Shown piece after piece: positions 27,500 through 32,758 of a stretch of 45,853 bases of DNA. Under the pieces are notes generated by a model. The model had not been told where the DNA came from. It saw only the letters and a list, made by a program, of their open reading frames with translations, and searched no databases. Origin of the DNA: Desulfohalobiaceae bacterium (GTDB lineage Bacteria > Desulfobacterota > Desulfovibrionia > Desulfovibrionales > Desulfothermaceae); the NCBI GenBank assembly GCA_021737085.1, contig JAIPEP010000005.1, positions 1-45,853 of the forward strand, in the 5' to 3' direction. The translations under genes and the position numbers were made by a program. Position 1 is the stretch's first letter; each line of letters begins with the position of its first letter.

Positions 27500-27515
27500 A
27501 GTTGGGTTTTTGGAG

Positions 27516-27588
27516 TGGGCGGTCAGGGATTTGAACCCCGGACTTCCACCGTGTGAAGGTGGCACTCTGACCTCTGAGTTAACCGCCC
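27516..27588 (-). tRNA. tRNA-Val (anticodon CAC)
   Basis: A 73-nt cloverleaf read on the minus strand. The acceptor stem is GGGCGGT with ACCGCCC and discriminator A. The D arm is ACTC/GAGT, and the anticodon stem is CCACC/GGTGG with loop TTCACAC, giving anticodon CAC for the GUG valine codon. The T arm is CGGGG/CCCTG with loop TTCAAAT. The 3' CCA is not encoded. A near-ideal promoter lies just upstream. Confidence 0.96.
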
Positions 27589-27761: not shown

Positions 27762-29339
27762 TTATTTGAGGGGAGTGGAGAACTGCTCCTCCACTGCATA
27801 GCGATGGCAGGGGCCGCTGTTCCAGGTGCAGAAGGGATAGAGCCGTCCGTCCGGGCTTCCGTAGTGGATAACACAGTGCTGCACGCGGTCCAGCTCGAAG
27901 TTGTAACTGTCCTGGAAGTGCATGGCCGCCAGAAGGAGCACGTGGTAGCGATCCCCGATCTTGTGGTAGATATGGCCCTTTTGTCGGTTGTTATGGGTGG
28001 ATTCGGCCTCCAGGAAGGTGTTCACGAAATCGATAAGGGAGTCGAAATCTATGCCCTCCGGGGCTTTCTCCGGCTTATAGTGCTTTTTCAGCTTGCGCAG
28101 GAGCTGGAGCCTGGTTAGCTTTTTGCGCCAGGCGGAATGGTTCTCCAAGGATTCGGCCTCCTTGTTCATATCCCGCATGGCGCTCTCGATGTCGATGAAC
28201 TGGGTAATGGGCACCGCTTCTCCGGTATATCTGTCCACCACGAGATAGCTGGCCGCTCCGCAGTGGGGGTGGCAAGAGAAGTACATCTTGGGCGTTTCCG
28301 TCATGCTCTCCAGAAGCCGGCTAACCGGAGAGATTACGGAAAAGGGCTGCCAGTCCTGATACATGTCCAGGATCCCGGTTTGTTCCTGCAGATCCCTGGC
28401 CATATCCGCCATAGTGTAACGCATCTCCAGTCGCTTGCTCTCGTCGATGCGGCCGGTGATGGAAACCGGCTGGAAGCTGAGGGCGGTCACCACATCCGTA
28501 TTGTTAATGGCGAATTTCAGGATGTCCCCGAGCTGATGATCGTTGAGGCCGCGCACAATGGTGGGGACCAGGGTGACCATGATTCCGGCCTGCTTCAGGT
28601 TCTCCATGGCTTGCATTTTGATGTCGTAGAGCTCCCGGCCCCGGGAGTATTTATAGATATCGTCTGTCATCCCGTCGAACTGGAGATAAACCACGTCGAG
28701 GCCCGCATCAGCGGCCTGTTGGGCGAATTCCGGTTTTTTGGCGAAAAGCATGCCGTTACTGGCTGCCTGGAGGTCGAGCACGCCCTTGTCCTTGGCCATT
28801 TTGACCGCATCGAGGAACTGGGGATGAACAGTGGGCTCCCCCCCGGCGTACTGGATGCTGAGCGGAGGGTAGGGCCTGATGCCCATGACTCGGTCCAATA
28901 TATTTTCAAGCTGGTCCAGGCTCAATTCAGTTAGCCTACCGGTGGCGTTTGCATTGGCGAAGCAGATGGGGCAGTTCTGGTTGCAGCGGTTGGTGAGGTC
29001 GATGTTGACCAGGCACGGGCTGGATTTGTGCTGGTTGCAGATACCGCAGTCTTGGGGGCAGCTGCCGCTGGAGGCGGTCTGGGGATTATGCATGGGATTG
29101 CCAAGCTCGAAGTGCCGTCTGCGCCGCAAGAGAAAAAACTCCGTATCGCTGCAGATCAACTCGTTGAAGGATCCGTGCTGGTCGCAGGCCTTATACATCC
29201 AGATCTGCCCCTCCCTGTCATAGAGCTGGGCTTCAATGACCTTGTTGCATTCTGGGCATACGCTTTGCGTGGCAAGGGGTAGCTCGTTTTTCTCCGCATC
29301 CTGTTGCGGTCCGCTTTTCATGCTTCTCTCAAATAGCAT
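27762..29339 (-). CDS. Radical SAM enzyme resembling the MJ0619 / tetraether lipid synthase family
   Basis: A 525-residue radical SAM protein with extra metal sites. Counting from ATG 29339: an N-terminal Cys knuckle CPEC (28-31) with C52 and C63 suggests a rubredoxin-like metal site; C94, C98, C101 and C109 form a CPQDCGIC...PC cluster; C119, C123 and C126 (CNQNCPIC) are the radical SAM cluster; further cysteines lie in FSCHPHCGA and near the C terminus (YPFCTWNSGPC). This order matches the archaeal MJ0619/Tes family, whose studied members join lipid chains or methylate pterin precursors. ATG 29339 has an AGGAGG site 6 nt upstream. The gene follows an ArsR-family regulator by about 60 bp. 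Substrate unknown; the family call is recognised, not searched. Confidence 0.8.
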   Translation of the reverse strand: MLFERSMKSGPQQDAEKNELPLATQSVCPECNKVIEAQLYDREGQIWMYKACDQHGSFNELICSDTEFFLLRRRRHFELGNPMHNPQTASSGSCPQDCGICNQHKSSPCLVNIDLTNRCNQNCPICFANANATGRLTELSLDQLENILDRVMGIRPYPPLSIQYAGGEPTVHPQFLDAVKMAKDKGVLDLQAASNGMLFAKKPEFAQQAADAGLDVVYLQFDGMTDDIYKYSRGRELYDIKMQAMENLKQAGIMVTLVPTIVRGLNDHQLGDILKFAINNTDVVTALSFQPVSITGRIDESKRLEMRYTMADMARDLQEQTGILDMYQDWQPFSVISPVSRLLESMTETPKMYFSCHPHCGAASYLVVDRYTGEAVPITQFIDIESAMRDMNKEAESLENHSAWRKKLTRLQLLRKLKKHYKPEKAPEGIDFDSLIDFVNTFLEAESTHNNRQKGHIYHKIGDRYHVLLLAAMHFQDSYNFELDRVQHCVIHYGSPDGRLYPFCTWNSGPCHRYAVEEQFSTPLK

Positions 29340-29401
29340 AACCTTCCTCCTATAATGCACTTGGCTTAATTAGGTCCCACAGGGGGTGAGTTCAAAGTCG
29401 C

Positions 29402-29752
29402 TTATGCCGAGCTAGGGAGTTGTTTTGCCAGGTAACTCCGCAGTGTGTGCAAGTCTCGCCGGACTTCGGGCAATTGGTGCAGATATCTGTCCAACATATC
29501 CCAAAGCTTGTGTTGAAGGGGGTACTCACCCTTTTTGAGATGATAGTACATCCAGGCCCCTTTTCGTCTGGCTTTGATCCAGTGGGCATTCTTTAGATAG
29601 GCCAAGTGTCTGGAAACAGTGGATTGGGGCATGTTCAGAGTGGCCATGAGATCGCAGACCCGCAGCTCGCCCTGGGTCAGCAGGGCAAGGATGCGCAGTC
29701 TGGTCCGTTCGGAAAGGGCCTTTAGTAGGGTCTCCATGTTTTCTATATCCAT
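29402..29752 (-). CDS. ArsR/SmtB-family transcriptional regulator
   Basis: A 116-residue winged-helix repressor of the ArsR/SmtB family. The core is ALSERTRLRILALLTQGELR, then VCDLMATLNMPQSTVSRHLA as the helix-turn-helix, and the wing KARRKGAWMYYHL. The classical ELCVCDL metal(loid) motif appears as ELRVCDL, so only one of the two alpha-3 cysteines remains and metal sensing may differ. A C-terminal helix has no cysteine. The start may be ATG 29752 or the internal ATG 29737. It is directly upstream of the radical SAM gene, so it probably regulates it and itself. A possible -10 TATACA sits immediately before the start. Confidence 0.9.
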   Translation of the reverse strand: MDIENMETLLKALSERTRLRILALLTQGELRVCDLMATLNMPQSTVSRHLAYLKNAHWIKARRKGAWMYYHLKKGEYPLQHKLWDMLDRYLHQLPEVRRDLHTLRSYLAKQLPSSA

Positions 29753-29989
29753 AATGGTCCATGTATAGTGTTTTTCTTTATGTTTTTAAGTGTATCATCC
29801 ATCTTGGTAAATGTCTCGCACTGTATAAACTGGATAATGGAGGTTGTCTGGACAGCACTATATCCGGCTAAGCGGATTCTGTCAATCTTGTTGCTTGAGA
29901 ATCAGGTGAGGGGATGAATCCACACTGGAATTGATCCGCTCAAGAAAGCCTCAAAAGGGGATTTTGTAAAAGCTGCGGGCGGAGCGGGG

Positions 29990-31282
29990 TCAGCTTTCCG
30001 GGGGATAGTCTTGGGGATGGAGATGGGACAGGGCCTCTCCCACAGTGAAGAGCGAGCCGCAGACCAGAACCAGGTCTTGTTCTGCTGCCGCGTTCCTGGC
30101 GCGGTCCAGGGCCTGTGGCAAGAAGGGGACGACCTCCTGAGAGGGCAATGGGTGGGGGCATCTTTTGCAGAGGGAATGGGGATCCATGGCCCGGGGGTAT
30201 TCCGGTCGGGTAAAGATCACGTGATCCGCCAGTGGGGTTAGTGCTTCCAGCATGGCTGAGGCGTCCTTGTCCTCCATGATTCCCAGCACCAGGATGAGCC
30301 GGGAGTAGTGGAACTCTTCCCGGACTGTCCGGCCCAGTTCCGCCATGGCAGCGGGATTGTGCGCCCCGTCCAGAACAATGCGGGGCGAGGAGCCAACCTG
30401 CTGCAGCCGCCCGGGCCATTGGGCCTGGAGGAATCCTTTTTCAATCCCTTCCCGGGGCAGGGCCCAACCCAACCCCACCAGGATGTCCAGTGCGGCCAGG
30501 GCCAAAGCGGCGTTGCGCCGCTGGTGCCGTCCCCTCAATCCGATCTGGACCTGGTCCAGGTGGAGTTGCTCCCCGGAGAAAAAGATACTCGTTCCATGGT
30601 CCCTATGGGCGAAGTCACGGTCCAGGTGGAACATAGGGGCCATCGCTTCCAGACAGCTGCGGCGCAGAAGCTCGAGGGCACTGTTGTCTGTGACACCGGT
30701 CAGAAGGGGGATGCCCTCCTTGATGATCCCGGCCTTCTCTCCGGCCACCTCGAGGAGGGTATCCCCGAGGAACTCCCTGTGCTCCAGACTGATGTTGGTG
30801 ATAAGGGAGACAAGGGGGGTGATAAGGTTCGTGGCATCCAGGCGGCCTCCCATGCCCACCTCGATCACCGCGATGTCCGTGTCGCGCCGGGCGAAACAGT
30901 CCAGGGCCATGGCGGTTACCGCCTCGAAGAAGGTGGGCGGCTCCCGCTCGTCCACAGCCGCCCGGAGGTTTTCGTGGAGCCCCACGACTTCCCGGGGCGG
31001 AATGGGCTGACCGTTTATGCGGAACCTTTCATTGAAATGCACCAAGTGGGGGGAGGTGAACAGACCGGTGTTGTATCCGCAGGCTTGTAGGGCGCTGGCG
31101 AGAAGACAGGCCACTGATCCCTTCCCGTTGCTCCCGCCGACATGAATAAAGTGCCGGCCGTGATGGGGGTTCCTCAAGCCGGCAAGGAGGTTGGCGGTCT
31201 GGGACAAGCCGAACTTGATCCCATACTTCTGCAGGCTGTAGAGTTCGTCCAGAACGCGTGAATAGCCCGTGGCTTGGTTCAT
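29990..31282 (-). CDS. folC: Folylpolyglutamate synthase / dihydrofolate synthase
   Basis: A 430-residue Mur-ligase-like enzyme that adds glutamate to dihydropteroate and folates. The P-loop is HVGGSNGKGSVACLLA (about residues 43-58); TSPHLVHFNERFRING, VIEVGMGGRLDATN, ISLEHREFLG and VLDGAHNPAAM complete the ligase core. The open frame extends 321 codons further, but that part is only the shadow of the divergent gene, so I place the start at ATG 31282 (GGAG 3 nt upstream). The 5' end overlaps or abuts that of the rightward radical SAM gene. Confidence 0.94.
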   Translation of the reverse strand: MNQATGYSRVLDELYSLQKYGIKFGLSQTANLLAGLRNPHHGRHFIHVGGSNGKGSVACLLASALQACGYNTGLFTSPHLVHFNERFRINGQPIPPREVVGLHENLRAAVDEREPPTFFEAVTAMALDCFARRDTDIAVIEVGMGGRLDATNLITPLVSLITNISLEHREFLGDTLLEVAGEKAGIIKEGIPLLTGVTDNSALELLRRSCLEAMAPMFHLDRDFAHRDHGTSIFFSGEQLHLDQVQIGLRGRHQRRNAALALAALDILVGLGWALPREGIEKGFLQAQWPGRLQQVGSSPRIVLDGAHNPAAMAELGRTVREEFHYSRLILVLGIMEDKDASAMLEALTPLADHVIFTRPEYPRAMDPHSLCKRCPHPLPSQEVVPFLPQALDRARNAAAEQDLVLVCGSLFTVGEALSHLHPQDYPPES

Positions 31283-32758
31283 TGTCTCCAGTCCCGTGCT
31301 TGAGCGGTCCGCTGGATGGGGCGCCCCTTCATCTCCCGGTACAGCCCTTATCTGGCTGCCGTGGCTGGCTCCCTTGGCCTTGGAGGGGGTTTTCTTGTAC
31401 GATCTTAAACAGCCCGGGTCAATCTGCAGGCTCAGGTGGTTTTCCAGGGCGCGTCTGCGGGAGTTGGAGCTCTTTCCCTTTGGCGAGGAGATACTGGCGT
31501 GGAATTCCGGGACCAGGAAATAGCTATCGAGATAGGCAAACAAGGGGAGTTGCGGCACAGGAAGGTGAGCTATCCGCTGCTGGTGGGAACCTACCACAAG
31601 ATCACCCTTCCCGGGTATGTCTTTTTCTACGACCTGAAGGGGGATATCAAGTACATCCGCGGACTGGGCAGGGACTGGCCCCATCCCTCGGAATGGCTGA
31701 AGCGTAGCAAAGGCGGCTGCTGGGTCTACTACTTCTCCGGTCGCTATACTGAGGACCTCTTCGACTATTTGGGGGAATACTACCTGCCCTGCTTTGCCTA
31801 CCAGAGCAACTCCCTGTGGCGTGTGGATCCTTTTGCCGAGGAGTCGGTGCAAAGGGCGCTCGCCGCCTGGGAGGAGGTCCCCGGGCTGCTGGAGCAACAT
31901 CTGGGAAAGAAGGGGCCTTCGCCCATCAGGGATCTTGTGCTCCGAATCGGGGAAAGGGGGCGGGAGGCCCTTCAGGAGTCCGCAAGGGAGCTGCTGCGGA
32001 TCAACGGGGATGAGGTGCGCGTGCTTCCTCCAGACACGCGCCATGTGGATTATGAGGTGCTTCCCCTGTTCATAGCGGAGGGATGCCTGTACGACTGCGC
32101 CTTTTGCCGGGTTAAGTCCGGCCGCTCCTTCCAAAGCCGCAGCAGGGAGAATGTAAGGGGGCAGCTCCGGGAGCTGGAAAATCTGTTGGGAGAGGAGAAG
32201 GCCAATCTCAATGCCGTTTTTCTGGGGCAGGACGATGCCCTGCACGCCGGCACTGAGCTAGTGACAGACGCCGCGGAAATGGCCCTTCAGTCCCTGCGGG
32301 GGTCACCGCTAGGGGATAGGTACGTTTTTCTCTTCGGCAGCGTAGACTCCCTGCTTGCCGCCGAGGATAAGCTGTGGCGCAATCTGGCGGAGCTCCCCTG
32401 CCGAACCTATGTCAACATAGGTCTGGAATCGGGTGACCAAGACACACTGGACAGGCTGGGAAAGCCGTTGCGGGCGGAGTTGGTCCGCGAGGCCTTTTCC
32501 CGCATGCTCGACCTTAACGAGTGTTACGCCAATTTGGAGGTGAGCGCCAACTTCCTACTCGATCCCGGTTTGCCTTCGGATCACTGGGCCGAGCTGGAAC
32601 GGCTGCTCCGAGAGGTGGCGGTCAGACCCCGGAGTAAGGGAAGCATATACCTCTCTCCTATGCGCGGGGGAAGAAAACGGGAGCATATGCGTCTATTCCA
32701 GCCACTGAAGATGCGGAGCAGATTGCCTCTCTACCTCTATCTCATCCAGCGGCTGTAA
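31269..32758 (+). CDS. Radical SAM protein, apparently frameshifted near its N terminus
   Basis: The main frame (GTG 31436 to 32758) encodes a radical SAM protein with the cluster motif CLYDCAFC at about residues 218-225 and typical GLESGDQDT and LGQDDALHAG segments. A plausible N-terminal part lies in a different frame, 31269-31523 (peptides such as WLPWLAPLALEGVFLYDL and RELELFPFGEEILAW), and reads like protein, whereas the in-frame start of the main frame does not. The shift from one frame to the other falls at about 31490-31523 and needs one missing or two extra bases; no slippery heptamer is evident. It could be a true mutation, a sequencing error, or a later start. Function unknown. Confidence 0.65.

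Follow-up and report, generated by a model that had tools for sequence, protein, structure and literature searches.

Bacterial membrane-spanning lipids can be made by an enzyme separate from Tes, namely Mss. Temperature and pH proxies in wide use raise the question of which bacteria make branched tetraethers and by what enzyme. Homologues of Tes have been suggested as an answer since 2022, when Zeng et al. proposed brGDGT synthesis for bacterial Tes (PMC8941075). Desulfobacterota are already among the reported bacterial hosts (PMC8941075, PMC11868695), and the brGDGT producer Solibacter usitatus carries Tes and PlsAR homologues (PMC10087280). The M. jannaschii enzyme MJ0619 binds bacterial phospholipids and forms a C-S intermediate (PMC9433317). 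GDGT made in E. coli is toxic, causing filamentation and lysis, and tes mutations are selected or tes is lost (PMC12042123). In the literature searched, no bacterial Tes was found that had been shown to couple lipids, and none had been tested.

The locus described here lies in a 45,853-nucleotide stretch of DNA (contig JAIPEP010000005.1 of assembly GCA_021737085.1), which is referred to as the window. Its host is a Desulfohalobiaceae-related metagenome-assembled genome (MAG) of a salt-lake-type sulfate-reducing bacterium, and the genome is 89% complete.

Organization of the arsR-tes locus

The features of the locus are as follows.

27515-27588: tRNA-Val, downstream of tes
27762..29339, (-) strand: tes, radical SAM protein of 525 aa with an ATG start; a Shine-Dalgarno sequence precedes ATG 29339
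29402..29752, (-) strand: arsR, 116 aa, ArsR/SmtB fold, one cysteine, without a known metal site
29857..29885, (-) strand: sigma-70-type promoter of arsR-tes (TTGACA, 17 nt, TATAGT), with 11/12 consensus matches
29862..29877, (-) strand: candidate operator ATCCGCTTAGCCGGAT, an imperfect palindrome in the promoter spacer with arms ATCCG/CGGAT
29990..31282, (-) strand: folC, on the same strand upstream of arsR-tes

The arsR and tes genes run head to tail on the same strand, with 62 bp from arsR to the tes ATG, and they likely form an operon. This linkage is also present in the sister species (genome G001). A longer tes reading frame beginning at GTG 29360 would encode 532 aa. Since an AGGAGG Shine-Dalgarno sequence lies directly 5' of ATG 29339, the protein is probably 525 aa long, and the GTG start is probably wrong. 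Residue numbers used below are those of the 532-aa reading frame. In another member of the family (G003), the folC-tes order is kept and arsR is missing.

Two further observations concern the surroundings of the locus. A 440-aa radical SAM protein is encoded divergently from folC (31436-32758, (+) strand) and matches no curated family above cut-off. In the sister genome, partial arsR-tes loci are found on both contigs C70 and C139 (L027 and L031). They differ slightly from each other, which could represent either strain variation or two copies.

A full-length Tes-family protein in a bacterium

A preliminary description of the window had placed a Tes-family radical SAM enzyme behind an ArsR-family gene. 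Both are present on the (-) strand, and the product of tes is a full-length Tes-family (Tes/GDGT-MAS) radical SAM protein in a bacterium. It scores 516.7 bits (E=5.3e-155) against the NCBIfam Tes equivalog model NF045702, which has a cut-off of 450 bits, and the match spans model positions 2-485 of 486. Pfam recognizes a Radical_SAM domain and the HMPTM zinc ribbon. A phmmer comparison with 7TOL extends across residues 29-531 (E=1.8e-117), and identity to the solved M. jannaschii enzyme is approximately 40% over the full length. The fold predicted by AlphaFold2 with 29 relatives as input (pLDDT 80.3, pTM 0.86) has 7TOM and 7TOL as its top structure matches (TM 0.81/0.87 to 7TOM over approximately 512 columns). 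The matches that follow these two cover the radical SAM core only.

Alignment to MJ0619, whose ligand positions are taken from PMC9433317, shows that all of its metal-ligand positions are conserved. The rubredoxin-type site C-x2-C-x20-C-x2-H is present as C35, C38, C59 and H62. The N-terminal 4Fe-4S cluster has its three cysteines and one histidine (C101, C105, C108 and H111), and the Cx3Cx2C motif of the radical SAM cluster corresponds to C126, C130 and C133. For the C-terminal 4Fe-4S cluster, M480 is the equivalent of the labile MJ Met439. C367, C496 and C511 are invariant cysteines in the Tes alignment and are the putative ligands of this cluster. Y500 corresponds to MJ Tyr459, a residue that is strictly conserved in archaeal enzymes but dispensable for MJ0619 activity (PMC9433317).

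All nine members of the window's clade have an extra cysteine, Cys518, in the segment PFCTWNSGPCHR, seven residues past the invariant Cys511. Elsewhere in the Tes alignment this cysteine occurs in 7/59 other bacterial rows and in none of the 24 archaeal rows. Because of those seven bacterial rows, Cys518 was dropped as a unique clade marker.

Separation from the paralogue TrsS

The preliminary description had relied on the full cysteine layout of the MJ0619/Tes family. Every ligand is indeed kept, but the layout is weaker evidence than was claimed. All of the metal ligands are also invariant in the TrsS rows of the alignment, so the layout is not diagnostic of Tes and marks the wider family instead. 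The two groups are told apart by other means. Against the TrsS model NF045646 the window protein scores 335.7 bits, under the cut-off of 490. The Tes/TrsS split in the tree has support of 100/100, and the Tyr459 position is occupied by Val in the TrsS rows and by Tyr (Y500) in the window protein. Curated score, tree and Tyr500 together separate this sequence from TrsS.

Relatives and phylogeny

The nearest named relative of the window Tes, at 86% identity, comes from a Desulfohalobiaceae MAG. Sequences from another Desulfohalobiaceae MAG, Desulfonatronospira, one Planctomycetota MAG and one unclassified MAG are 53-63% identical, and beyond this group identity falls to 45% or less. The window's clade comprises Desulfohalobiaceae, Desulfonatronospira, the Planctomycetota MAG and the unclassified MAG, and it offers a compact test case from anaerobes. 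Tes is patchy in the order: 7 of 61 genomes exceed the cut-off, with the host's own genome counted, and most other matches among these genomes are TrsS-like. In a sample of the phylum, Tes is found in 15/395 genomes. As a separate observation, TrsS and Tes were not found together in any genome of the order sample (G000-G060).

Phylogeny, a check that the preliminary description had suggested, places the window protein apart from TrsS (100/100) and among bacterial Tes rows (86/99), with archaeal Tes outside. A quick tree gives the same bacterial placement with support of 100. A Tes from Solibacteraceae falls within the same bacterial group. The window's clade sits on a long branch, and an AU test does not reject joining it to the archaeal rows (p=0.22), so its deep placement is tentative. 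As this test does not decide between a bacterial and an archaeal origin of the clade, the tree was not taken as proof of either.

Lipid genes of Tes-bearing genomes

Neither the host nor any of its six close Tes-bearing relatives yielded a match to GGGP synthase, and outside these seven genomes there were fragmentary, weak matches only. Since the host genome is 89% complete, absence there would by itself be no proof. PlsY is present in the host and was found in six of these seven genomes. The host also encodes one 1410-aa protein, not adjoining tes, with two BcrAD_BadFG domains and DUF2229. Following general usage, PMC10087280 and PMC11868695 rather than a curated PlsA model, we take this architecture to mark a PlsA/Ger-type ester-to-ether reductase, of which Ger and PlsA cannot be told apart from domains. 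A host with PlsY and such a reductase and without GGGP synthase should supply Tes with a bacterial glycerol-3-phosphate lipid.

DUF2229 proteins occur in 21/21 Tes-bearing genomes and in 20/31 genomes without Tes (Fisher p=0.0016, relatedness ignored). Restricted to the order, the comparison shows a weak contrast (7/7 versus 17/27 others, p=0.08). Many genomes without Tes have PlsA/Ger-type genes as well and may use them for plasmalogen synthesis alone. In six bacterial loci, belonging to two separate Tes lineages, a PlsA/Ger-type gene (BcrAD_BadFG plus DUF2229) lies within 6 kb of tes:

Lineage 1: L056, L061, L067 and L099
Lineage 2: L109 and L110

As a check of the method, a geranylgeranyl-reductase-like gene was found beside tes in 12 Thermoplasmata-type archaeal loci. 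With PlsA/Ger-type genes so close to tes in these loci, it becomes more plausible that ether or ester lipids are the substrates of bacterial Tes.

Other neighbors were seen at individual loci. In a genome of the Desulfonatronospira group (G036), a B12-binding radical SAM gene lies 66 bp downstream of tes (L029:10435-11808) and is nearest to BchE/HpnJ/HpnR. It is not seen in the near-identical locus of G028 (L030) and so carries little weight. A phospholipase-D-type, cardiolipin-synthase-like protein with a PLDc_N domain (L028:5254-6699) is also encoded near tes.

The ArsR regulator and its candidate operator

The arsR product belongs to the metalloregulator subfamily NF033788 (91.2 bits, cut-off 55) and matches CzrA, SmtB and HlyU, which gives it the winged-helix ArsR fold. 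The alpha-3 motif ELCVCDL has become ELRVCDL, with the first cysteine lost in both species of the genus. The preliminary description had noticed that a single cysteine of this motif is left, and this residue, Cys33, proves to be the sole cysteine of the 116-aa protein. Searches of the protein for the alpha-5 pattern DxHx10HxxH/E and for ELCxC gave no match. With both the alpha-3 and alpha-5 sites missing, a metal-sensor reading was rejected, and the metal response that had been suggested earlier is not supported.

Outside the genus, the closest homologue of this ArsR (48% identity) comes from a Desulfonatronospira-group genome and keeps CVCDL, and other homologues in the family lie beside genes that read as arsenite-efflux-type. 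These relationships suggest that the regulator is probably either a former arsenic sensor that now answers to a different trigger or an autorepressor. At L164:1247-3373, the gene for the 48% homologue adjoins a methyltransferase gene and a flippase-like LPG_synthase_TM gene. In every Tes locus examined outside the genus arsR is absent, and no conserved ArsR-Tes pairing is seen there. This distribution, together with the folC-tes order without arsR in G003, indicates that arsR was probably gained in this genus. Being confined to it, the regulator carries little information on the role of bacterial Tes in general.

The candidate operator is identical in the sister species (L031:1291-1306). In this comparison of two species, the 29-nt promoter/palindrome block is identical at 27/29 positions, versus 76/190 aligned columns outside the block. 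ArsR probably binds this palindrome inside its own promoter, holding tes down, and what releases it would probably not be a classic metal. A wider ArsR regulon was considered and rejected: ATCCGCTTAGCCGGAT has one exact copy in the whole genome, and among the near matches, the one with 2 mismatches and most of those inspected with 3 fall within long reading frames. Identity with SahR, the SAH-sensing ArsR of sulfate reducers, was likewise rejected, as the homologous reading frames of relatives are separate genes of approximately 304-331 aa and the window's ArsR has 116 aa. The palindrome does fit the published ATC-10-GAT core of SahR sites (PMC4239095), which is a short core, and a SahR-type site is a lead only.

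Proposed function and its alternatives

Family membership, ligand conservation, operon layout, the conserved promoter/operator block and genome content are established directly, as is the likeness of fold. The explanation that fits them best, and which we regard as rather likely, is that Tes joins lipid tails into a membrane-spanning lipid and is under ArsR repression in this genus. We infer the reaction, substrate and product, as well as the repression and its signal. At the radical SAM cluster, cleavage of SAM would yield 5'-deoxyadenosyl radicals, which would abstract hydrogen from a lipid chain at its tail end. The tail carbon would next become attached to a sulfur atom in the C-terminal 4Fe-4S cluster, before being coupled to a second chain to yield the membrane-spanning lipid. 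Given the bacterial glycerol-3-phosphate lipid genes of the host, in which no GGGP synthase was found, the chains would most likely be branched fatty acyl or alkyl. The PlsA/Ger-type reductase of the host would convert them into ethers, either ahead of coupling or afterwards, and the product would be iso-diabolic-acid or brGDGT-like. In the arsR-tes operon, ArsR seated on the promoter palindrome would repress tes until a signal of a non-classic-metal kind appears. The toxicity of GDGT in E. coli would provide a reason for such repression.

Several alternatives draw on the same evidence. There is a minor but real chance that the Tes scaffold performs another reaction on another hydrophobic substrate (tail methylation or desaturation, or quinone or hopanoid modification) and makes no membrane-spanning lipids. 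The long branch, the approximately 40% identity to characterized Tes and the clade-wide Cys518 near the invariant Cys511 are compatible with this, and a true homologue, M. acetivorans MA_1114, gave no GDGT when expressed and traces of macrocyclic archaeol only (PMC8941075). However, every ligand and Tyr500 are kept and the score exceeds the curated Tes cut-off. The preliminary description had left open a lipid or a cofactor as the target of an inducible modification. The lipid is the better reading, and there is quite a slim chance that a folate- or pterin-type cofactor is modified instead. MJ0619 was formerly proposed to methylate methanopterin, and in both the window and G003 folC lies immediately upstream. 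The Pfam zinc ribbon is named HMPTM, a name that presumably reflects the old methanopterin idea. But folC is not beside tes in the other clade members examined. Moreover, those who described GDGT-MAS were unable to confirm the activity reported before, and they found a long hydrophobic pocket with bound lipids (PMC9433317).

The remaining alternatives are still less favored or concern the regulator. An arsenic- or metal-responsive ArsR with metal-induced tes is unlikely: membership in NF033788 and the arsenite-efflux-type neighbors of family homologues speak for it, but Cys33 is the sole cysteine, ELCVC is changed to ELRVC in both species, and no alpha-5 site is found. The tes product is very unlikely to function like TrsS, a selenium-associated radical SAM paralogue common in this order, rather than as a Tes. 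The shared metal ligands and 335.7 bits would agree with this, yet that score is far below 490, the TrsS rows stand apart at 100/100 and carry Val in place of Tyr at MJ Tyr459, and TrsS identity was rejected on these grounds. Archaeal-type isoprenoid tetraethers are scarcely credible as products of this host. Tes family membership would be compatible with them, but GGGP synthase was found neither in the host nor in its six close relatives, and PlsY is present; isoprenoid GDGT is accordingly disfavored.

Lipid-tail coupling by Tes can be framed more broadly, and here we are tentative: Tes in halophilic and haloalkaliphilic sulfate reducers may make membrane-spanning bacterial lipids, switched in this genus by a dedicated non-metal ArsR. 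If so, formation of membrane-spanning lipids would be an inducible trait, and branched tetraethers would reach anoxic, salty sediments from these anaerobes. A repressor acting at a single locus would offer a rare way to learn when a bacterium switches these lipids on.

Comparison with known systems

Thermotoga maritima is known for diabolic-acid lipids. As a control, the Tes model was run against T. maritima at an E threshold of 1e-40 and found nothing. Mss resembles the proposed system in the tail-to-tail coupling of bacterial fatty chains and is a separate enzyme. TrsS (NF045646) has the same metal ligands, and the window protein differs from it by score, branch and Tyr versus Val. The ArsR/SmtB metalloregulators CzrA, SmtB and HlyU share the winged-helix fold and probably the arrangement of an autoregulated operon with the window's ArsR, which, unlike them, has no known metal site.

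Likeness to Tes/GDGT-MAS (MJ0619; 7TOL, 7TOM) extends over the full length, the fold, the four metal sites, the SAM-contact residues and the Tyr459 equivalent. In contrast to that enzyme, the window protein is approximately 40% identical, resides in a bacterial host in which GGGP synthase was not detected, and has an NSGPCHR tail motif with the extra Cys518. The bacterial Tes of Zeng et al. (PMC8941075) and of Black Sea MAGs (PMC11868695) belong to the same family and have a proposed brGDGT role. In the literature searched, no description was found of the window's clade with its arsR-tes operon. Bacterial Tes homologues have been known since 2022, and what the present locus and its relatives add are the regulator, the operator and the PlsA/Ger neighborhoods.
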